From a virus: a DNA stretch of 21,069 nt. The notes under the pieces were generated by a model. The model did no database searches. It worked only from the letters and a program-made list of their open reading frames with translations, and was not told the DNA's origin. This document shows, in pieces, positions 13,887-21,069 of this stretch (its first letter is position 1; each line of letters opens with the position of its first letter). Made by a program: the position numbers and the translations under genes. The stretch spans positions 1 to 21,069 of IMG/VR virus record IMGVR_UViG_3300017717_000113; one strand, given 5' to 3'.

Positions 13887-14155
13887 ATTACGCTTTAATT
13901 GAATGTATTACCTTTCATCGTAAAATACTAAAAGGGGAATACAAAGGAGACAATACATATAAGAATAATCTTATCGGCATCTACAACAGTCACGAAGAAG
14001 CTGAGTTTATCCTGTCTAAATCTAAAAAGCATTTAGTCGCAAAGGATGCAGTTAAGAGTATTAAATATGATATTGTGAAGACAGATAAACAAGTAACAAC
14101 AAGCAAGGTTGGTAATTATATCAATCGTAATAAACAGGAGGTTAGTAATGGCTAA
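13883..14155 (+). CDS. 90-residue protein of unknown function upstream of the Ubl gene
   Basis: MNYALIECITFHRKILKGEY begins with a short beta strand, then GIYNSHEEAEFILSKSKKHL looks helical, and the C-terminal third is basic and Lys/Asn-rich. The strand-helix order with an H-x-E-A-x-x-x-L helix is reminiscent of small alpha/beta proteins, but I do not recognise it. The start overlaps the previous stop (ATGA) and its end overlaps the ubiquitin-like gene's start by eight bases, so all three are probably co-translated. Given that location it may be a partner or target of the conjugation set; this is inference from position only. Confidence 0.66.
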   Translation: MNYALIECITFHRKILKGEYKGDNTYKNNLIGIYNSHEEAEFILSKSKKHLVAKDAVKSIKYDIVKTDKQVTTSKVGNYINRNKQEVSNG

Positions 14156-14381
14156 CAACAATCCAGTAGTAATAAGATACATGGCGTATCACACAGGTGG
14201 AGTACCAAAGACTGTAGAGGCATCTACTCCAGCAGAGATTGCTGAAAAAGAAGGATTTGGCATTGATGACAATCAAGTAGCGATTTTCGTTGGTGGTAAA
14301 TCTGCAACCCCAAACACTCGATTAAAAGAGGGTCAGGTTGTATCTTTTCAGAAAGCTCGCCAAGAGTCTGGTAATAAATAA
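14148..14381 (+). CDS. Ubiquitin-like beta-grasp protein (ThiS/MoaD/Ubl-like)
   Basis: A 77-residue protein. I start it at MANNNPVV since CAGGAGG lies upstream; an earlier in-frame Met (14109) lacks such a site. The visible order is strand (PVVIRYMAYH), strand (PKTVEA), helix (STPAEIAEKEGF), strand (NQVAIFVGGKSA), then TRLKEGQVVSFQKA. This beta-beta-alpha-beta-beta order, with the V-x-V-x-G-x...T-x-L-x-x-G-x-x-V hairpin, is the mark of ThiS/MoaD/ubiquitin-like beta-grasp proteins. The C-terminus is ESGNK instead of Gly-Gly, so either trimming by the JAB peptidase or activation of a different end would be needed. It would be adenylated by the E1 at 17265 and transferred by the E2-like protein. 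A strong terminator follows, so it is likely made in excess of its enzymes. Confidence 0.68.
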   Translation: MANNNPVVIRYMAYHTGGVPKTVEASTPAEIAEKEGFGIDDNQVAIFVGGKSATPNTRLKEGQVVSFQKARQESGNK

Positions 14382-14389
14382 CCTGTTAC

Positions 14390-14424
14390 ACCCCCCTAAG
14401 CAATTAGGGGGGTTTAATTTTTTT
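14390..14424 (+). terminator. Strong Rho-independent terminator after the Ubl gene
   Basis: ACCCCCCTAA pairs perfectly with TTAGGGGGGT over ten base pairs around a GCAA tetraloop, followed by TTTAATTTTTTTC. It begins nine bases after the stop of the beta-grasp gene. No promoter is visible in the 30 bases before the next gene, so the enzyme genes are probably read through from upstream at a reduced level. Confidence 0.9.
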
Positions 14425-14445
14425 CTAATTTAAAAGGAGTTAAAC

Positions 14446-16437
14446 ATGAAAATAACATACGAAAGATTAAATATTGATTCAACAATATTATGTCCAATAT
14501 CTGTTACCAAAGAAAGTACAACAACAATGCTTAACAGGTTCTTTAATTTAAATGAAAACAAAGCTTTTTGGGAAACATTTTTAAACGATTATGAATTGTT
14601 TTATGATTATGACCATAAAAGTTTCTTTTATATTGTAAGAAATGCAAGACTAAGGTTGCGTAAATATTTTTATATGCCACCTATATATGTAAAACTTAAT
14701 TTATTACAAAAAGAGCAATTTGGAGACTTAGAACCTCAGCATATTAGATATCTTCAAAAGTTTGATTATTATAGCAATACAATAAACGAAGATGATTCAA
14801 AATCTTATGAATTTGATAGTGAATTTTCATTTATGTCAGCTTATCATCCTCATGTAGATAGTAACGCTTGTGCGTGTTATGGTAGATGGGCTACTCAAAT
14901 AACAGAAGCATATAGTAACGGCTTGGTTTACCCATTTATGGAAACTATCAGAGCTTATCTAAATGATTATAATGGTAGAAGTACATTTTATAGTATAGAC
15001 CCTTATGCTTTTGACGATAAACATAGTTTAAAAATAAATAATTTTGGCACTTATAAAGAAGATTGGTTAGCTATAAGTTCTAAAATGGAATTTGTTTATG
15101 GCGAACAATGGTTAATGGATTTTTGTGAATATAAAAACCTTAATTATGATATGTATTATAAAATATTTCTTTATTATCAAAATAATGATGTAAGAATGTT
15201 TGATAATGCTGACCAATTACATAGCGTAATGTTTAATGATGTACTGAAACAATATGTGAGTGACTATGATGAATATGTTCATTATAAATATGACATGACA
15301 GAAGAAGAATGGTCTGTTTACACAGAGTTTAAAGAATGGCTTAAACCTTATACTCAAGAAACAATAAATTTATGGTTAACAGAATTTATTCATCATTCTT
15401 ACAGTTCTCCTATTAAAAATGGAGATATTAATGCAATGCAGTATGCAATGGGAACTAGTATATACAGACTAAATAATATGGAACACCTCAGTGATAAATT
15501 AAGACCTGTATTAGAAAGATATTCTGCTATAGGTGTTATTAATTACTTAGAAAATGTTTTGCTTGATGACGATGCTAGAAGAGTTGGAAGCTATAGACAA
15601 GGAAACATGTTTTTATTATTATCTACTAATATTAAACCCAGTCAAATGTATGAATCTTACATTAAATGGGCTGAATATAAAATTGATAATGATAATACAT
15701 CTTTGTTAATGGAAAATTACAGTTCGATATCTAAATCAGCTAGAATGCAAAATCAAGGTTCTTTTGTAGATACTAATATGGAGTTAAAAAGTATTCATTA
15801 CGATATTGATTGGGAAGGTATACAGATGGATGGTTTTAGGCATACATGGATTAATAACTATAAAGACCATTGGAAAGAAATACTAGGGTTAAAATTAGTT
15901 AGAGAGTTAAATCGTTATTGTAATAATATGGTTGAAGACAATGATTTAAATATTAGTAATAGTGATAAAAAACATCTTTTAAACATAATGCTTAACAGAG
16001 AAGAAATAAGAGAAACAACAAATCTTAAAGCACCTAAAATGAAAGATACAATTAGACTTGCTCTTGTCTCAATGCTTAAATATCATAATTTAGGTTTAAC
16101 AGGTGATGTCTATAATGAACTAGTTAGTTTCTTAACAGAACAAAACACTGAATATAGTATGAATGAATTAGTAACAATGATGTCTGGAATTGTAAGTAAT
16201 GATGAAAACAACTTAGAAGAAAAAAGAGAAAAAATGGTAGATATGATATATGTAGCAATACCAGATTTTCCAAAAGACCTAGATGATTTTCATGACTATA
16301 CAATGAAATCTTGGACAATAATACTAAAAAATGCATTTACACACTATAAAATAAACATAACAAACAAAATAAAGGAGTTAAACAATGTACTTAACAATAC
16401 CTCTAGAAATATATCTCAAACTGAACTATTTTCTTAA
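14446..16437 (+). CDS. Large protein with E2-like (UBC-fold) conjugating motif
   Basis: A 663-residue, very Asn/Tyr/Asp-rich protein. Residues 131-148 read SAYHPHVDSNACACYGRW. This matches the E2 active-site flap H-P-N-[IV]-x-S-N-G-x-x-C: His134-Pro135-His136, then Cys144 exactly ten residues after the His, as in eukaryotic E2s (HPNINSNGSIC). A helix and a Y-N-G-R-S-T-F-Y segment follow (residues 150-185), parallel to the E2 helix and N-P-x-x-P segment. Cys142 is a second Cys nearby. Residues about 190-663 match nothing I know. E2 domains are near 150 residues, so this is a fusion or an extended E2. AAAGGAG precedes the ATG. The gene overlaps the JAB gene by 53 bases. I infer transfer of the ubiquitin-like protein; catalysis is not shown. 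Confidence 0.6.
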   Translation: MKITYERLNIDSTILCPISVTKESTTTMLNRFFNLNENKAFWETFLNDYELFYDYDHKSFFYIVRNARLRLRKYFYMPPIYVKLNLLQKEQFGDLEPQHIRYLQKFDYYSNTINEDDSKSYEFDSEFSFMSAYHPHVDSNACACYGRWATQITEAYSNGLVYPFMETIRAYLNDYNGRSTFYSIDPYAFDDKHSLKINNFGTYKEDWLAISSKMEFVYGEQWLMDFCEYKNLNYDMYYKIFLYYQNNDVRMFDNADQLHSVMFNDVLKQYVSDYDEYVHYKYDMTEEEWSVYTEFKEWLKPYTQETINLWLTEFIHHSYSSPIKNGDINAMQYAMGTSIYRLNNMEHLSDKLRPVLERYSAIGVINYLENVLLDDDARRVGSYRQGNMFLLLSTNIKPSQMYESYIKWAEYKIDNDNTSLLMENYSSISKSARMQNQGSFVDTNMELKSIHYDIDWEGIQMDGFRHTWINNYKDHWKEILGLKLVRELNRYCNNMVEDNDLNISNSDKKHLLNIMLNREEIRETTNLKAPKMKDTIRLALVSMLKYHNLGLTGDVYNELVSFLTEQNTEYSMNELVTMMSGIVSNDENNLEEKREKMVDMIYVAIPDFPKDLDDFHDYTMKSWTIILKNAFTHYKINITNKIKELNNVLNNTSRNISQTELFS

Positions 16438-17287
16438 ACAATTTCCAACAACAGAATGGTCAGGGCCAGCATGGTATAAGCCTCATTATAGAAAAGGAGA
16501 GAAATTTCCTAAAGGCTTTACACTTGTTCATTTTCATCCCGTTGATTTAGGACATGGTACAGCAACAACAATAGAAGCTGAAGATACTGCAAAAATACTT
16601 CAGAAAACTTGGAAAGATTATCCAGAAACAGAAAAATGTATGATGGGAATTATACATTCTCACCATAATATGGGTGCGTTCTTTAGTGGAACGGATAAAA
16701 ACTGTTTAAAAGATAATGCTCCAATAGAAAACTTTTATTGTTCAACAGTTGTAGCAAGTAAAAAAGAAAAGTTTGCATTTGCTATTAGTTATCAAGACCA
16801 ATATGGCAAAACGCATTTAGTAGAAGCTAATTCTGAGAATATTAATATGCAAATGCCTAATAAAAGCAAAGAACAAGATAAATGGGCTAGAATAGCTAAG
16901 AAAATCAAAGATGATAAAAAGACAACTACTGTTACTAGTTGGTATGATAAAGGAGGCAGTCTTAATCAAGGCAACCTCTTTCCTATGCAGAGTAGACCTA
17001 GTCAATTTGGTAGTTATTATACTAACAATTTTAGTATTAACGCTTATGATGAATACGATAGCGTTATAACTGGGCAAGAAAAAATCATAGATAAACACAG
17101 AAAAGATTCTATGACAGCCGATGACCCTGATTCTGCTTATATATCAAGTTTATATAAAAGTATGAATGCAGGAGAAATTGACCAGTTGTTAGTAGAAGAA
17201 GAACTTGAACTAATGAATCTAAATCCAGCAATAGTAATAGATGAAATAGGCAAGGAGGACAAAGATGAATCAAAAGCATCTGCGTAA
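16385..17287 (+). CDS. JAB/JAMM-family deubiquitinase-like metallopeptidase
   Basis: A 300-residue protein with the complete JAMM zinc-peptidase signature. Glu24 lies in TTEWSGPAWY, and His91-Ser-His93, then Ser101 and Asp104, lie in IIHSHHNMGAFFSGTD, matching E...H-x-H-x7-S-x2-D exactly. The domain runs from about residue 4 to 140. The remaining 160 residues (charged, with two internal Gly/Ser/Gln stretches and an acidic C-terminus) are an added tail of unknown role. JAMM enzymes remove ubiquitin-like proteins or trim their precursors. AAAGGAG precedes the ATG, which lies 53 bases inside the E2-like gene. Its end overlaps the E1 gene by 23 bases. Together with the neighbouring E1 and Ubl, it most likely processes or releases the phage Ubl. 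Confidence 0.88.
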   Translation: MYLTIPLEIYLKLNYFLKQFPTTEWSGPAWYKPHYRKGEKFPKGFTLVHFHPVDLGHGTATTIEAEDTAKILQKTWKDYPETEKCMMGIIHSHHNMGAFFSGTDKNCLKDNAPIENFYCSTVVASKKEKFAFAISYQDQYGKTHLVEANSENINMQMPNKSKEQDKWARIAKKIKDDKKTTTVTSWYDKGGSLNQGNLFPMQSRPSQFGSYYTNNFSINAYDEYDSVITGQEKIIDKHRKDSMTADDPDSAYISSLYKSMNAGEIDQLLVEEELELMNLNPAIVIDEIGKEDKDESKASA

Positions 17288-18008
17288 CAAAGACCTTATA
17301 CCACAAGAAAAACTCAACGATGTAACAGTCGTTGGGTTAGGTGGTATAGGTAGTAGTGTTATTATGTTATTAGCTACTATGGGCTTTAAGTTTATAAGAG
17401 GCTATGATAATGATAACATGGAAGAGCATAATTTTGGCACCACATTATATCCAGAAATATGGTATAATGAGGTTGATAATTCTAAAGCATCAATGGCTGA
17501 AAAAATTATTAAAAGCTACGGAGGTAGTAATGTTGAAATAGATATGCAACAAACTTTGTTTACAGGAGAGGGTCAGGTACTTTCTCCTAAAACAATAGTT
17601 TGTACAGATAGTATGAGCAGTAGAAAGATAGTATATAACAAGTGGCTTGAAAGAGAAGATAGAGAAGTGTTTATAGACCTCAGGATGGATGCACTTTCTA
17701 TGAGCTGTATAACAGCAACACAAGGACTTGATAAATATCAAGATTACTGGTTTCCTAATGGAGAGAGTGGACAAGAAGCTCCCTGCACTATGAAACATAC
17801 AATATTCTGTGCAAACCTAATTAGTGGTATTGGTGTAAATCAACTGTTTAATTACTTGACAGGGAGACCTTTTTATGGCTATATTTGGCAAGGTCTTTCG
17901 CCTTTAGTAATAAAGACAGAAGACTTCAATAGTGGAGAAGTAAATAACACAAACAATATAACTGAGGAGAATGCGTATGCAAATACAAACTCGTACAGTT
18001 ACAACTAA
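17265..18008 (+). CDS. E1/ThiF-like ubiquitin-activating enzyme
   Basis: A 247-residue adenylating enzyme of the ThiF/MoeB/E1 superfamily. Residues 21-30 hold the nucleotide loop VVGLGGIGSS (G-x-G-G-x-G). Asp48-Asn-Asp50 ends the next strand, followed by EEHNFGTTLYP (Asn56), a Lys in NSKASMAEKI (Lys74) and CTDSMSSRKIVYNKW (Asp115, Arg120), the usual order of ATP and Mg ligands. Candidate catalytic Cys are Cys174 (QEAPCTMKH) and Cys182. MoeB-type CxxC zinc pairs are absent. It would adenylate the C-terminus of the Ubl and pass it to the E2-like protein. AGGAGG precedes the ATG. It overlaps the JAB gene at its start and the recombinase gene at its end, so all are one translated unit. Confidence 0.88.
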   Translation: MNQKHLRNKDLIPQEKLNDVTVVGLGGIGSSVIMLLATMGFKFIRGYDNDNMEEHNFGTTLYPEIWYNEVDNSKASMAEKIIKSYGGSNVEIDMQQTLFTGEGQVLSPKTIVCTDSMSSRKIVYNKWLEREDREVFIDLRMDALSMSCITATQGLDKYQDYWFPNGESGQEAPCTMKHTIFCANLISGIGVNQLFNYLTGRPFYGYIWQGLSPLVIKTEDFNSGEVNNTNNITEENAYANTNSYSYN

Positions 18009-18816
18009 TTGGAACGAACAACCTGCGGGGCTGACTTGGTATTTTATAGGTCAGCCCAAAACAGGTAAAACCACAGCGGCCGCTAACTGGTCTGCAAAAG
18101 GTGCTAAAGGTGTCTTAATGATAGATACTGACCTTGGTGCAGACTTTGTTGACGGTGCTAATGTTGTAACAGTTACATCACTTAACCCACCTTTTACAGG
18201 AGAAGGGGATGATAGAAAAATGATACCCCCTCTTGAAAGAGGATTTTACCATAGAGTTGGCCCTAAAAGAGGCGAACCAATGGAGGTTTATTCTTTATTT
18301 GAGGTATATACTTGGATAAAAGATAATTGGAAATCTCTAGGCTATGAAAGCTTGGTAATAGACACAATAGATACTATTAACGAATGGATACAGGAAGCTG
18401 TATGCGAAGAGTTAGGTATAAGTGCAATGGGTCAAGGAGAATGGGGAGCTGATTGGGGTAAAGCAAGAAAGAAAAATGTGGATATAGTTAAGAGATTACA
18501 AACTCTAATGAAAGCACATGGTTCTAACTTAATACTCACTTCCCATAGTAAACAATCCCAAATGAATGATGGCAAAGTGCAATTAAGTCCTGAATTACCA
18601 AGAGGTCTTGGATATGCGCTATGTGCTAAAGCCGATGTAATAGGATACTCAACCGTAGTTAAAGATGAATTGATACCAAAAGTATCTTTTCAAGCTTATG
18701 ACGAAAGAACAGTTGGCTCTAGACTTAAGCCATTAAATGGGCTTGTTCTGCCTTTTACATATACTGATGTAAATAAGGCAATAACCGAATACAAAGAAGA
18801 TGAAGGAGAAAGCTAA
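17977..18816 (+). CDS. Sak4-like RecA-fold ATPase (recombination/annealing)
   Basis: A 279-residue ATPase. Walker A is GQPKTGKTT about 20 residues in; Walker B is SLVIDTIDTINEW at about 125. A polar LILTSHSKQSQ strand (sensor-like) follows at about 185. The G-x-P-K-x-G-K-T form and the short size fit the phage Sak4/AAA_24 family of RecA-like proteins, which work with an SSB in phage recombination; here an SSB-like gene follows directly. I choose the second in-frame ATG (17977) since GAGGAG is then at proper spacing; the first is at 17971. It overlaps the E1 end by 32 bases. It would load on or pair DNA during replication or repair. Confidence 0.82.
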   Translation: MQIQTRTVTTNWNEQPAGLTWYFIGQPKTGKTTAAANWSAKGAKGVLMIDTDLGADFVDGANVVTVTSLNPPFTGEGDDRKMIPPLERGFYHRVGPKRGEPMEVYSLFEVYTWIKDNWKSLGYESLVIDTIDTINEWIQEAVCEELGISAMGQGEWGADWGKARKKNVDIVKRLQTLMKAHGSNLILTSHSKQSQMNDGKVQLSPELPRGLGYALCAKADVIGYSTVVKDELIPKVSFQAYDERTVGSRLKPLNGLVLPFTYTDVNKAITEYKEDEGES

Positions 18817-19427
18817 TGGCGTTATTACAATCAAGTAGTAATACAAAAATGAATAGTGATTTTACTGGTTATTTTGAAGCTGGTATAGAAAAAGTCGAGG
18901 ATAAGAGCGGTCAATATGACTGGGCTGATTGTTGGCTTGATGTACACTTTAAAATAAAAAACAGTAAATACCCACAAGTTCATTCTATCAAAGGTTCTTA
19001 TGAAAAGAATCCTGACGGAACAGTAAGCATCAATAGAGTAGTTAGGCAGTTTAACTATTTAAAAGATGCTATTGGTTTCGAAGGTGGAATCAATACTGAA
19101 GGAGACTGGGAAATGGCTAATGGTGAAAAGATAGACAGTATAGAGTCTACTTTAAACAGCTATATTTCAGAAATGAACGGTAGTGATAATCCTTTGCTAG
19201 AACCGCCTCATAACTACCTAATATATGTTTATAGAGAAGCACCAAAGAAACAAGGTGATAAAACATATAAAAGGGTGTTGGGTAAAATAGTCGATAATGA
19301 TAATGCAGGTAGAAGTGACTTAGAAAGTTATGTAACCTACATGAAACAAAAAGGCTATCTAAAGGAAGCGTCTGAAAATGACACCCCTTCCGCACCAACT
19401 CAACCTCAAAGCGACATGCCATTTTAA
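18816..19427 (+). CDS. Putative single-strand DNA-binding protein, Sak4 partner
   Basis: A 203-residue protein next to the Sak4-like gene, sharing a TAATG stop/start. The core (residues about 14-60, 90-150) alternates strands (FTGYFEAGIEKV, CWLDVHFKIK, NYLIYVYRE, KRVLGKIVDN), fitting an OB-like fold. The last residues PTQPQSDMPF are a flexible Pro/Gln-rich tail ending in D-M-P-F, close to the D-I-P-F acidic tip by which bacterial SSBs recruit partners. Genes beside Sak4 are often SSB-like in phages (for example DUF669). Identity is inferred from context and tail; direct sequence match to SSB is weak. Confidence 0.6.
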   Translation: MALLQSSSNTKMNSDFTGYFEAGIEKVEDKSGQYDWADCWLDVHFKIKNSKYPQVHSIKGSYEKNPDGTVSINRVVRQFNYLKDAIGFEGGINTEGDWEMANGEKIDSIESTLNSYISEMNGSDNPLLEPPHNYLIYVYREAPKKQGDKTYKRVLGKIVDNDNAGRSDLESYVTYMKQKGYLKEASENDTPSAPTQPQSDMPF

Positions 19428-19456
19428 TGGAGCTTTATGTTGAAGTAGCTATAGGG

Positions 19457-19476
19457 AGCCCCCACCAAAGGGGGCT
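19457..19476 (+). terminator. GC hairpin before the primase start
   Basis: AGCCCCC pairs with GGGGGCT over seven base pairs around ACCAAA, followed by TCTTATG. It lies 30 bases past the SSB-like stop and four bases before the ATG at 19481. The poor T-run suggests partial termination, or a translational control hairpin that covers the G-rich site of the primase gene. Confidence 0.5.
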
Positions 19477-19480
19477 TCTT

Positions 19481-21069
19481 ATGCCTTTAGGTAAATACGA
19501 AAAAAACATGTCCGAGTTTTTAGAGCGGGGACAATACATACCCATATACAGGTCTCATTATCTATATGATAAAGATGCTTATCTATTTGTACAAGATAAC
19601 AAATCACTAAAAGACTACACGGGTAAAAGGTATGTTGATAATATACTTATTGATATTGACCGTAAAGATGATAGTGACGATAGAGTATTAGAAAAAGCTA
19701 AACTTGCAGTAAACGAACTTAATTCAATGGGACTAAAAGATGGTAATTATAGTATCTTTTATAGTGGTACAGGTTACCATATATTAGTTTCTGCTGATTG
19801 TTTTGACTTTACACCAAGTGAACAGTTACCTTATATAGTAAAACAAACAATGACACAGCTATTTACTACAGTTAATATAGACCCTGCTGTGTATATGAGG
19901 ACTTCTATATATAGAGAACAAGCTACTAAAAATGCTAAATCAAACTTGTTTAAAACAAAACTATCGACACAAGGTTTTATGCAATTAACCTTTGATAAAA
20001 TAAGAAAACTCGCATCAAAACCTTCAGATATAGACTGGGAAGAAACTCTTTGGGGTGATGGCAGTTTAGAAGATAAAGTAAAGACTAGTGTAGAAACTGT
20101 TCGTTCTTTTAAAGCTGTACAAGAGCCTACAAAAGTTGCACCTTGTGTGCAACAAATGTTTGCTGAAGGCCCTAATGAAGGTAATAGAAACAATGTTATA
20201 TTGCGTATGGCTTCGCATTTTAGACGAAATGGTATACCCTCTGATGCTACAAAAGCATCCCTATTACACTGGAACAATAATCAACTTCGTGAAGAAATTG
20301 TATTAGAAAAAGTAGAAAGTGTATACAATAACGGGTATCAATATGGCTGTCAAGATGTTGAAATGAAAGCTAGATGTAAAACGCATTGTATACATTACAA
20401 AAAGAAAGACTATGACATAGAAGTTAAAGACTTTCAACAACTACAAAAGAGACTAGAAGAAAGAATGTCAACTGACTTTAGTGGAAAAACAATAGATTTA
20501 TCAAAAATATTTGGTCTACCAGATGTTGATTGTACAATCTATCCCGGTGAGTTAGTTACTATATTTGGGCCTACTGGCGCAGGTAAAACTACTGTTGCTC
20601 AAAACATTATCTTAGGGTATAATTCTGCTCAAGACAGAATAGACCAAGATTCACAACTAAATACTTTGTATTTAAGTTTAGAATTGAGTGATTGGTATAT
20701 GCATAAAAGACATATTCAAATAGTTGCTGATGTAGATAAACAACAAGTCGAAGGAGATGTTTCTAAAATAGCAGAAGACCATAAAGACTTACTAGACCAT
20801 GTTGTTATACAAACTGTTCAACCAACCTTAGATAGTATTCAAACAAAAATAAGAGAACTAGACCCTCAGGTTGTTGTAGTAGACTATATAGACTTAATAG
20901 ACCCGGGCCCTACAAAGCGTGGAGAGTACGAAGCTATTAGGTATATTAGTCACTCACTTAGTAATATGGCAGTTAATAACGACATTATTATTATACAGCT
21001 ATCACAAGTAGCTAGAGAATATAGTAAAAATGATGTCTTAGACCTTTACGCAGGTAAGGGTAGTGGTGC
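19481..21069 (+). CDS. Primase-helicase (AEP primase plus DnaB-like helicase), C-terminus beyond window
   Basis: At least 529 residues, open at the right edge. The primase half has archaeo-eukaryotic primase motifs: LIDIDRKDD (Asp58, Asp60), YSGTGYH (Ser95, His100) and VNIDPAV (Asp134). About residues 222-250 (CVQQMFAEGPNEGNRNNVIL) resemble the PriCT region. A possible zinc cluster has Cys290, Cys299 and Cys303. The helicase half has Walker A GPTGAGKTT (363-371), Walker B VVVVDYIDLID (464-474) and IIIIQLSQVARE. It would prime and unwind DNA for replication. The ATG at 19481 follows a G-rich tract; a longer start at 19427, overlapping the SSB-like stop, is possible but lacks a ribosome site and would run through the hairpin. 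Confidence 0.92.
   Translation, partial: MPLGKYEKNMSEFLERGQYIPIYRSHYLYDKDAYLFVQDNKSLKDYTGKRYVDNILIDIDRKDDSDDRVLEKAKLAVNELNSMGLKDGNYSIFYSGTGYHILVSADCFDFTPSEQLPYIVKQTMTQLFTTVNIDPAVYMRTSIYREQATKNAKSNLFKTKLSTQGFMQLTFDKIRKLASKPSDIDWEETLWGDGSLEDKVKTSVETVRSFKAVQEPTKVAPCVQQMFAEGPNEGNRNNVILRMASHFRRNGIPSDATKASLLHWNNNQLREEIVLEKVESVYNNGYQYGCQDVEMKARCKTHCIHYKKKDYDIEVKDFQQLQKRLEERMSTDFSGKTIDLSKIFGLPDVDCTIYPGELVTIFGPTGAGKTTVAQNIILGYNSAQDRIDQDSQLNTLYLSLELSDWYMHKRHIQIVADVDKQQVEGDVSKIAEDHKDLLDHVVIQTVQPTLDSIQTKIRELDPQVVVVDYIDLIDPGPTKRGEYEAIRYISHSLSNMAVNNDIIIIQLSQVAREYSKNDVLDLYAGKGSG

Follow-up and report, generated by a model that had tools for sequence, protein, structure and literature searches.

Organisation of the locus

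The window analysed here is a 21,069-nucleotide stretch of viral DNA (IMG/VR record IMGVR_UViG_3300017717_000113, positions 1 to 21,069). At 14148-18008 it carries four consecutive genes, all on the + strand, which encode a ubiquitin-like protein (Ubl), an E2-like protein, a JAB/JAMM metallopeptidase and an E1. A preliminary description of the sequence had read them as conjugation-type genes, and all four open reading frames (ORFs) are confirmed. That they form a conserved phage gene system tied to replication genes is well supported. The features of the cassette are the following.

14148-14381, + strand: Ubl gene, 77 amino acids; the listed ORF begins at an upstream TTG.
14390-14413, + strand: terminator-like hairpin with a T-run, in the gap between the Ubl and E2-like genes; the longest stem in the scan.
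14446-16437, + strand: E2-like gene, 663 amino acids; an N-terminal alpha/beta region, then a mostly helical part.
16385-17287, + strand: JAB/JAMM metallopeptidase gene, 300 amino acids; E24 and HSHHNMGAFFSGTD; Pfam Prok-JAB.
16417-16431, + strand: QTELF, a motif resembling clamp-binding motifs, close to the E2 C-terminus; it overlaps the start of the JAB gene in a different frame.
17265-18008, + strand: E1 gene, 247 amino acids; a single ThiF/MoeB-type adenylation domain; Pfam ThiF.

The overlap of genes described earlier holds for the E2-like and JAB genes (53 nt), for JAB and E1 (23 nt) and for E1 and the following gene, which encodes a Sak4-type AAA ATPase (38 nt), but not for the Ubl and E2-like genes, which lie 64 nt apart. 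The hairpin in this gap has the longest stem among 8 terminator-like sites in the region scanned (shuffles give 3.8). Hairpins with a T-run are present in 11 of the 35 Ubl/E2 gaps folded, the window counted, a tally without a shuffled control. Such a hairpin would favour output of the Ubl in excess of its enzymes.

At the E2/JAB junction (16385-16437 in the window), 41-125 nt are read in two frames in the loci measured from the first marine lineage (lineage 1). Both proteins are apparently under constraint in this dual-frame stretch, which makes it a case for studying overlapping selection.

The ubiquitin-like protein

The Ubl ends in ...QKARQESGNK, where S74-G75 is the conserved glycine site and NK a two-residue tail. 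S74 and G75 are invariant in all 31 aligned lineage-1 relatives. The AlphaFold model (mean predicted local distance difference test score, pLDDT, 77.8, with a flexible tail) contains strands at residues 7-13, 21-25, 44-48, 51-53 and 64-69 and a helix at 28-35, in the element order of a beta-grasp. When compared with VIA-align, the sulphur carrier TtuB is the top neighbour (Z 8.2, root mean square deviation (rmsd) 2.1, 63 aligned residues) and the modifier SAMP1 the third (Z 7.4), and two more sulphur carriers, MoaD and CysO, are among the best neighbours. The Foldseek list is headed by SUMO and ISG15 (E 7e-4 to 8e-4). Predicted model and structural neighbours thus agree on the beta-grasp fold assigned to the 77-residue protein in the preliminary description. 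As a single protein, the window Ubl matches nothing beyond E 0.07 in Pfam, PHROGs, NCBIfam or PADLOC. Among its 31 aligned relatives, Pfam (E at most 1) finds TGS in 10 (best 0.0026) and ThiS in 5 (best 4.6e-4), both of them beta-grasp families.

The tail behind the glycine is of variable length. In 46 lineage-1 Ubls, no residue follows SG in 2, one in 26, two in 7 and nine or more in 11. An invariant SG with a freely varying tail is the pattern of a precursor that is cut after its glycine, and the JAB protein would be the natural enzyme for this step. In the bacterial Bil operon, BilC frees the Ubl glycine, according to the text available from PMC11354881.

The JAB peptidase and the E1

The JAB protein exceeds the Pfam Prok-JAB cut-off (27.7 bits against 25; 2.7e-6) and contains the JAMM metal-site motif E, HxH, SxxD. 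H91, S92, H93, S101 and D104 are invariant in 27 of 27 sequences, and E24 is present in at least 90%. The E1 also lies above its Pfam cut-off (ThiF, 41.7 bits against 28.1; 1e-10). It contains GLGGIGSS, D48, D50, N56, K74 and, in APCTMKHT, C174, which we take from its position to be the catalytic cysteine; D48, D50, N56, K74 and C174 are invariant in 27 of 27 rows, crAss-like phages included. Against solved structures, the E1 profile matched MccB, UBA6, UBA5, UBA3, ThiF, MoeB and Citrobacter BubCD. The motifs of both enzymes are complete, as first described.

The E2-like protein

Residues 134-146 of the 663-residue protein form the motif HPHVDSNACACYG, in which HPH (134-136) is followed by C144-x-G146 (HPH-x7-C). 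As in the preliminary description, C144 stands at what we take to be the E2 distance from the histidine. H134, H136, C144 and G146 are invariant in 33 of 33 aligned relatives and the proline is present in at least 90%, in an alignment that covers lengths of 415-731 residues and identities to the window protein down to 11%. Because most of these 33 proteins had been picked by the motif, the gene was recounted by position: among the E1-selected loci described below, the HxH...CxG motif is present in all 53 complete ORFs of at least 300 amino acids that end at the JAB start.

For roughly residues 1-170 the predicted model has high confidence, block-wise pLDDT values being about 85-97. This part contains helices, strands at 50-54, 59-64, 80-85 and 101-105, the HPH, the cysteine and then further helices, a predicted order that fits the ubiquitin-conjugating (UBC) plan. 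In VIA, the top row of 994 chains is 1y8x, a Ubc12 entry (chain A is presumably Ubc12, judged from entry title and length), and the second is the RWD domain 2ebk. Both matches are weak (Z 4.3, rmsd 4.7, 128 aligned residues and Z 3.4, rmsd 4.6, 113 aligned residues, respectively). Among viral models, Foldseek finds the unnamed 474-residue protein A0A516LW79 (E 1.4e-3, probability 0.97), the others being at 0.36 or worse. The single-protein scan of Pfam, PHROGs, NCBIfam and PADLOC gave nothing beyond E 0.07, a Pfam scan of the 33 relatives gave scattered single-member matches (best DUF3841, 7.4e-4), and PDB profile searches with three E2 alignments gave nothing informative.

Conservation of the gene set

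Linkage was counted in IMG/VR relatives selected with three different genes, using the best 80 of 141 relatives for E1, the best 80 of 133 for Sak4 and the best 80 of 506 for the terminase. From the 141 relatives in the E1 scan, 79 loci were kept; 16 large contigs were examined among the best 80 of the terminase set. Counts for the E1- and Sak4-selected loci include near-identical ones. The Ubl and JAB profiles used at the E1 loci derive from those same loci, and the E2 test there is by position.

At E1-selected loci with enough upstream DNA, JAB adjoins E1 in 69 of 69; a HxH...CxG protein is found in 53 of 53 testable loci and a Ubl gene no further than 400 nt from the E2 start in 46 of 46. 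Seen from the other side, E1 is present in 64 of 66 Sak4-selected loci with at least 900 bp upstream (62 by script, L132 and L152 by reading). Among the loci with 4.3 kb or more upstream, all four genes are found in 27 of 29 and none of the four in 2 of 29. A chance neighbourhood was rejected on the E1-locus counts and on the 27 of 29 Sak4-selected loci with the full set. No tested locus of either set has retained JAB and ThiF alone.

In the terminase-selected set, E1 is present in 10 of the 16 large contigs. Among the six lacking it, G012 starts inside the Sak4 gene, and searches of all of G010 and G016 and of 40.0 of the 41.8 kb of G006 gave no Sak4, SSB or primase; hence no true loss of the cassette is seen in these four. 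A JAB motif in G012 was dropped, as it lay within an ORF of 2549 amino acids. Host origin was likewise rejected. In 84,980 species genomes the E1 profile gave 3 loci, the best of which, L101 (29% identity, E 6e-16), reads as a crAss-like phage fragment and has a UDG-like gene close by; the matches of the other two, L102 and L103, are short and weak.

Two other functions can be set against these counts. In a sulphur-carrier pathway, E1 and a ThiS/MoaD-like Ubl would supply sulphur as a thiocarboxylate, to thiolate nucleotides, tRNA or DNA or to build a cofactor, the JAB protein would free the carrier and the 663-residue protein would be the acceptor enzyme. The Ubl neighbours TtuB, MoaD and CysO suit this pathway, as does the single-domain E1, which resembles ThiF/MoeB in this respect, but the HxH...CxG protein next to JAB in 53 of 53 testable loci does not: we know of no place for it in carrier pathways. 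As the four proteins also have no rhodanese, NifS-like or thiolase match in Pfam, PHROGs, NCBIfam or PADLOC, we hold a carrier function to be improbable. The other possibility is that only the JAB protein works, acting as a deubiquitinase on the Bil-like Ubl tags that the host puts on phage particles, while the other three proteins serve as decoys or regulators. Bil-type host systems do attach a Ubl to phage particles. Yet no tested locus has kept JAB after losing the others, and the E1 and E2 alignments show no change at the catalytic residues, a constraint that decoys would be free of; we give this idea very little credence.

Selection was compared in nine pairs of relatives, some of which share a member, with E1 compared in five. 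The ratio of non-synonymous to synonymous substitution rates (dN/dS) is below 1 for each gene compared in all nine pairs, the highest value being 0.976 (later part of E2, L054/L055); this purifying selection, too, speaks against a chance set. The best conserved of the four genes are the Ubl gene and, in its five pairs, the E1 gene; the least conserved is E2 in eight of nine pairs and JAB in the ninth. After residue 180, E2 is less conserved than in its first 180 residues in nine of nine pairs (in one by 0.3 points), and in eight of the nine its dN/dS there exceeds that of the first part. This pattern suits a fixed engine with a variable target-finding part.

It also bears on counter-defence or superinfection control, in which the same chemistry would be aimed at host defence proteins or rival phages, with the helical part of E2 in an arms race. 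In favour are the later part of E2, the fastest-evolving segment in most pairs beside an almost unchanging Ubl (and E1, in the pairs that include it), and the action of bacterial Ubl systems against phages, according to the available text of PMC10097602 and, for Bil, PMC11354881. Against this stand the near-universal presence in testable relatives, the fixed site among replication genes across distant lineages and dN/dS below 1 throughout, all of which are core-like. Accessory counter-defence genes are usually patchy. We regard such a role as unlikely, if less so than either of the two functions considered above.

The genes downstream of the cassette are the following.

17971-18816, + strand: Sak4-type AAA ATPase gene; Pfam AAA_24, 5.5e-19.
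18816-19427, + strand: probable SSB gene, with C-terminus SDMPF; the name follows from position and tail.
19427-21067, + strand: primase-helicase gene, leaving the window end; Pfam DnaB_C, 2.9e-16, and PriCT_1, 6.1e-6.

A gene of the corresponding region is called Sak4-like in the crAss001 record. Pfam gave no match to the SSB candidate at E 0.01. With these genes downstream, and with the set kept together in relatives, the cassette is phage-carried beside replication genes, as proposed at the outset; the 'early' status then given to the operon would follow from the same downstream genes.

Some observations on the surroundings may be added. In L130 (2524-5804) and L131 (2505-5785), a MoxR-type AAA ATPase and a 744-residue VWA-like protein (named by eye in L130) replace the cassette; the latter begins with MTQTDLF, a clamp-like QxxLF. 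Upstream of the Ubl gene, a small protein resembling SET-domain methyltransferases (GLGLFAAKDI...FINHNPKPNC...KKIAKGEELTLKYG) was recognised by eye in several loci (L027:2985-3350, L028:1558-1923, L030:2973-3344 and L032:3006-3350).

Related cassettes in marine and crAss-like phages

Seven of the ten E1-bearing terminase contigs have no match to the first E2 profile and constitute a second lineage (lineage 2) with the same gene order. Its Ubls have 65-69 residues and end exactly in VGG in six of seven and in VGGQA in one, so that GG is present in all seven; one is just above the Pfam ThiS cut-off (22.6 against 22.5 bits). The E2-like proteins, of 517-530 residues, contain xPYI[SA]...VC[LF]D, of which the form VCLD is presumably nearer to the textbook E2 active site than the window motif is. 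The E1 cysteine (PCNMKAT) is present in seven of seven, and a Sak4-like gene follows in seven of seven. The Ubl profiles of the two lineages align at E 1e-4 (probability 58%).

Relatives of E1 in the phage collection amount to 39 records, comprising 29 Flavobacterium phages, nine crAss-like phages and bajarodcaudo virus 1, and those of JAB to 74 records, crAss001 among them. The order Ubl, HSH...CxG protein, JAB, E1 is found in crAss001 (gp79-gp76), DAC15, cr106_1, bajarodcaudo virus 1 and Fpv3. Sequence links of crAss001 to the window are clear for E1 (5e-19) and JAB (2e-12); identities of the other crAss-like phages over the alignments are 24-29% for E1 and 15-20% for JAB. The E2-like proteins of this group, 394-444 residues long, contain M-H-S-H...C-x-G, with H, S, H, C and G invariant in the seven aligned. 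The N-terminal part of the Ubl reads as a beta-grasp ending in KSG, and SG is present in all five phages and coincides with that of lineage 1 in a profile alignment that is itself not significant (E 0.08). Pfam scans of the crAss-like E2 and Ubl gave nothing informative.

Four of the five crAss-like Ubls continue past SG with a tail of 135-206 residues. The exception is cr106_1 (L009:1596-2799), where an HNH endonuclease gene splits the Ubl behind KSG into a 92-residue Ubl, which ends in KSGKF, and a separate 130-residue tail gene. This is a natural cut just past the glycine.

Upstream of the crAss001 cassette lie a Sak4-like gene, what we read as an SSB-like gene, and a primase gene. Genes of these kinds recur beside the crAss-like cassettes read, with the primase upstream. 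The cassette genes are annotated there as ThiF/thiamine biosynthesis, E1 family, metalloprotease or hypothetical. The statement that the arrangement was not known in phages therefore needs amending: the same order is present in deposited crAss-like genomes, but it is not named there as a set. In the literature searched, supplementary tables being outside its scope, no published description naming a phage four-gene set was found. The main text of PMC10569736, as available, contains neither ThiF nor ubiquitin (its 'jab' matches are the name jaberico), and ubiquitin and ThiF are absent from the main text of two other crAss papers, PMC7886860 and PMC6235969.

Further features were seen in these loci. 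Between E1 and UDG, crAss-like loci contain a similar-looking protein of about 240-270 residues, perhaps a part of the system in its crAss form (L109:9336-10148, crAss001 gp75; L006:6606-7373; L101:825-1637; L105:7140-7853; L106:7265-8035). Several crAss-like Ubl tails end in [DE]I-x-x-MF (for example L109:4926-5603, L008:2432-3172 and L105:3318-3929). In contig G005, a 3098-residue protein (L257:29-9325) contains a cpYpsA/SLOG domain (E 4.7e-25) and GADLDGD, which resembles the NADFDGD motif of RNA polymerases; it may be a giant phage-encoded RNA polymerase like those known from crAss-like phages.

The clamp-like C-terminus of the E2-like protein

Near their C-termini, lineage-1 E2-like proteins carry motifs such as QTELF, QSELF, QGELF, QGDLF, QAELF, QIPLFF, QVPLFF, QVPLSF, QVHLSF and QVQLSF. 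The pattern scored was Qxx[LM]F or Q[LVIM]x[LM]x[LF], which is looser than the consensus. A review (PMC9690074, text available in part) gives the beta-clamp motif as QL(S/D)LF, places it at C-termini and considers it tolerant of variation. The strict QL(S/D)LF form is absent from the E2 C-termini examined. The looser form is present in 27 of 31 lineage-1 proteins, a set that leaves out the near-identical L002. With the JAB protein held fixed, 4000 synonymous-codon draws per sequence give an expectation of 0.8 in 31, and 3.26 in 31 when the E2 frame is also kept open; in a control, the motif is found in 4 of 1043 other ORF tails, some of which may belong to ORFs that are not genes. A by-product of the overlapping JAB frame, for which 0.8-3.3 would be expected, was rejected.

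Genes for DNA_pol_A, DNA_pol_B, DNA_pol3_alpha and DNA_pol3_beta are lacking in eight of eight large related contigs. With no polymerase of families A, B or C and no clamp in them, the host replicase and clamp are likely used by this phage group, unless the genes lie off the contig ends.

Proposed pathway

We think it rather likely that the four genes constitute a complete and reversible Ubl-conjugation system in the core replication module, acting at the phage replication fork. The parts of this reading differ in strength. Judged on sequence, the cassette is likely to conjugate its Ubl to protein; for a role in replication the chances are evenly balanced, and for docking of E2 on the sliding clamp they fall a little short of even. 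The gene set with its motifs, order and conservation, the purifying selection, the predicted Ubl fold, the E1 and JAB families and the excess of the clamp-like motif come directly from the data, whereas the E2 chemistry, the trimming of the tail, the binding to the clamp, the identity of the substrate and any gain for the phage are inferred.

In the proposed sequence of events, the JAB protein would cut off the short Ubl tail (NK in the window) to leave a Ubl with a reactive glycine at ...SG. The single-domain E1 would adenylate the Ubl and then take it on C174, from which C144 of the E2-like protein would receive it. The faster-evolving helical part of the latter may select the substrate, in an E3-like role, while the QTELF-type motif at its C-terminus would dock it on the host beta sliding clamp. 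The modified protein would be a replisome or recombination protein at the phage fork, either a host clamp client or the neighbouring Sak4, SSB or primase-helicase. Later, the JAB protein would strip the Ubl from its targets. In eukaryotes, PCNA-linked ubiquitin and SUMO steer replication. More tentatively, a phage E2 on the host clamp may tag a replisome or recombination protein by a pathway that is an ancient core trait, present in three diverged forms in marine tailed phages and crAss-like gut phages.

Several observations weigh against this reading. The UBC fold of the 663-residue protein is its weakest link; motif, predicted secondary structure and context point to it, short of firm proof. 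The best VIA score (Z 4.3) is only 1.1 above the rows of unrelated helical proteins (3.2 downward), a Foldseek search of the PDB with the full-length model gave nothing better than E 1, and the profile search gave no sequence match to any PDB chain. Between E2 profiles, lineages 1 and 2 are weakly linked (E 0.002, probability 13%, aligned at the motif), as are the crAss-like group and lineage 1 (E 0.001, probability 22%, again aligned at the motif), and the crAss-like group and lineage 2 show no link. The histidine before the cysteine is lost in four of seven lineage-2 proteins (x is His in three). The crAss-like Ubl profile does not match the marine ones significantly (E 0.08 and 0.02), and L130 and L131 carry Sak4 without the cassette. 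As for the clamp, 27 of 31 against 0.8-3.26 expected and 4 of 1043 controls means that the motif seems to be selected in the E2 frame, in a count that ignores kinship among the 31 sequences. The motif fails in L036, L037, L059 and, narrowly, L019, and the E2 C-termini of lineage 2 and of the aligned crAss-like phages lack it, so clamp docking cannot be a general function; it would be a refinement of lineage 1. The eight contigs lacking polymerase genes are not rated complete, and a polymerase could lie off their ends.

The 663-residue protein might instead be another enzyme, or a scaffold, whose HxH...C site binds a metal or a thiol, the Ubl being attached by E1 alone or by other chemistry. 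This would account for the lack of a confident PDB fold match, for a best viral match (A0A516LW79) that names nothing and for the histidine lost in lineage 2. However, the cysteine lies at E2 distance after HPH, strands precede and helices follow, a VCLD-type variant exists in lineage 2, and entries for Ubc12 and RWD are the two best VIA rows of 994; we consider this alternative no more probable than a sulphur carrier. On the predicted model and the motif, we identify the protein as a probable E2. What had been claimed for it stands as regards motif, cysteine position and conservation, while for the UBC fold there are just the weak structural matches to Ubc12 and RWD.

Several known bacterial Ubl operons defend against phages; here, phages of marine and gut origin keep a whole pathway among their replication genes, an arrangement that points to ubiquitin-style protein control run by bacterial viruses themselves. 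The cascade is compact, with four genes, and its E2 seems to unite E2 and substrate-picking parts. The clamp-like motif at the E2 C-terminus, in an overlapping frame, is new. If the conjugation system does act at the phage fork, ubiquitin-style control of replication forks may not be confined to eukaryotes. As crAss001, DAC15 and the Fpv-group Flavobacterium phages have named hosts, phage Ubl conjugation is directly testable.

Comparison with known systems

The cassette shares with the Bil operon the order Ubl, E2, JAB, E1, and this part of the relation drawn in the preliminary description stands. Further kinship does not, and membership of Bil was rejected. According to the available text of PMC11354881, BilA has two Ubl domains, BilB has a CEHH motif (Cys, Glu at +6, His at +8 and His at +13) and BilD, the E1, has two adenylation domains, one inactive and one active, and a Cys domain. 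In the window, the Ubl is a single domain of 77 residues, positions +6, +8 and +13 from C144 are T, I and S, and the E1 is one ThiF domain of 247 residues. Bil is moreover an anti-phage operon, whereas here the phage itself owns the set.

A second comparison is with the type 6d operons, which we take to be the PRTRC cassette. The parts available of Iyer et al. (2006, PMC1779556) list for them a Ub-like protein, JAB, E1, E2 and a helical protein, the E2 having no His before the Cys and one after it. A small single Ubl with a conserved C-terminal glycine and separate JAB, E1 and E2 genes are common to both. In contrast, HPH precedes the cysteine here (33 of 33), and the E2 and a long helical part form one protein. 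The NCBIfam models PRTRC_A (14.8 bits against a cut-off of 101.8) and PRTRC_ThiF (20.4 against 144.75) are far from satisfied, PRTRC_B and PRTRC_C are absent among the NCBIfam matches of the window proteins at E 10, and no PRTRC gene turned up when plasmids were searched with E1 and JAB. Membership of PRTRC was rejected on the models, far below cut-off or silent, and on the invariant His before the Cys.

Type II cyclic-oligonucleotide-based anti-phage signalling systems (CBASS), with Cap2 and Cap3, have E1, E2 and JAB chemistry in common with the cassette. There, E1 and E2 are one protein and cGAS is joined to targets via its own C-terminus (available text of PMC10097602), in contrast to the separate genes and dedicated Ubl found here. 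The lambda proteins TAPI and TAPK likewise combine a phage Ubl and a JAB domain, but in a tail assembly cluster for which the available text of PMC1779556 lists no E1 or E2. By the features compared at sequence level, the window cassette appears to work like Bil and PRTRC and is a member of neither.

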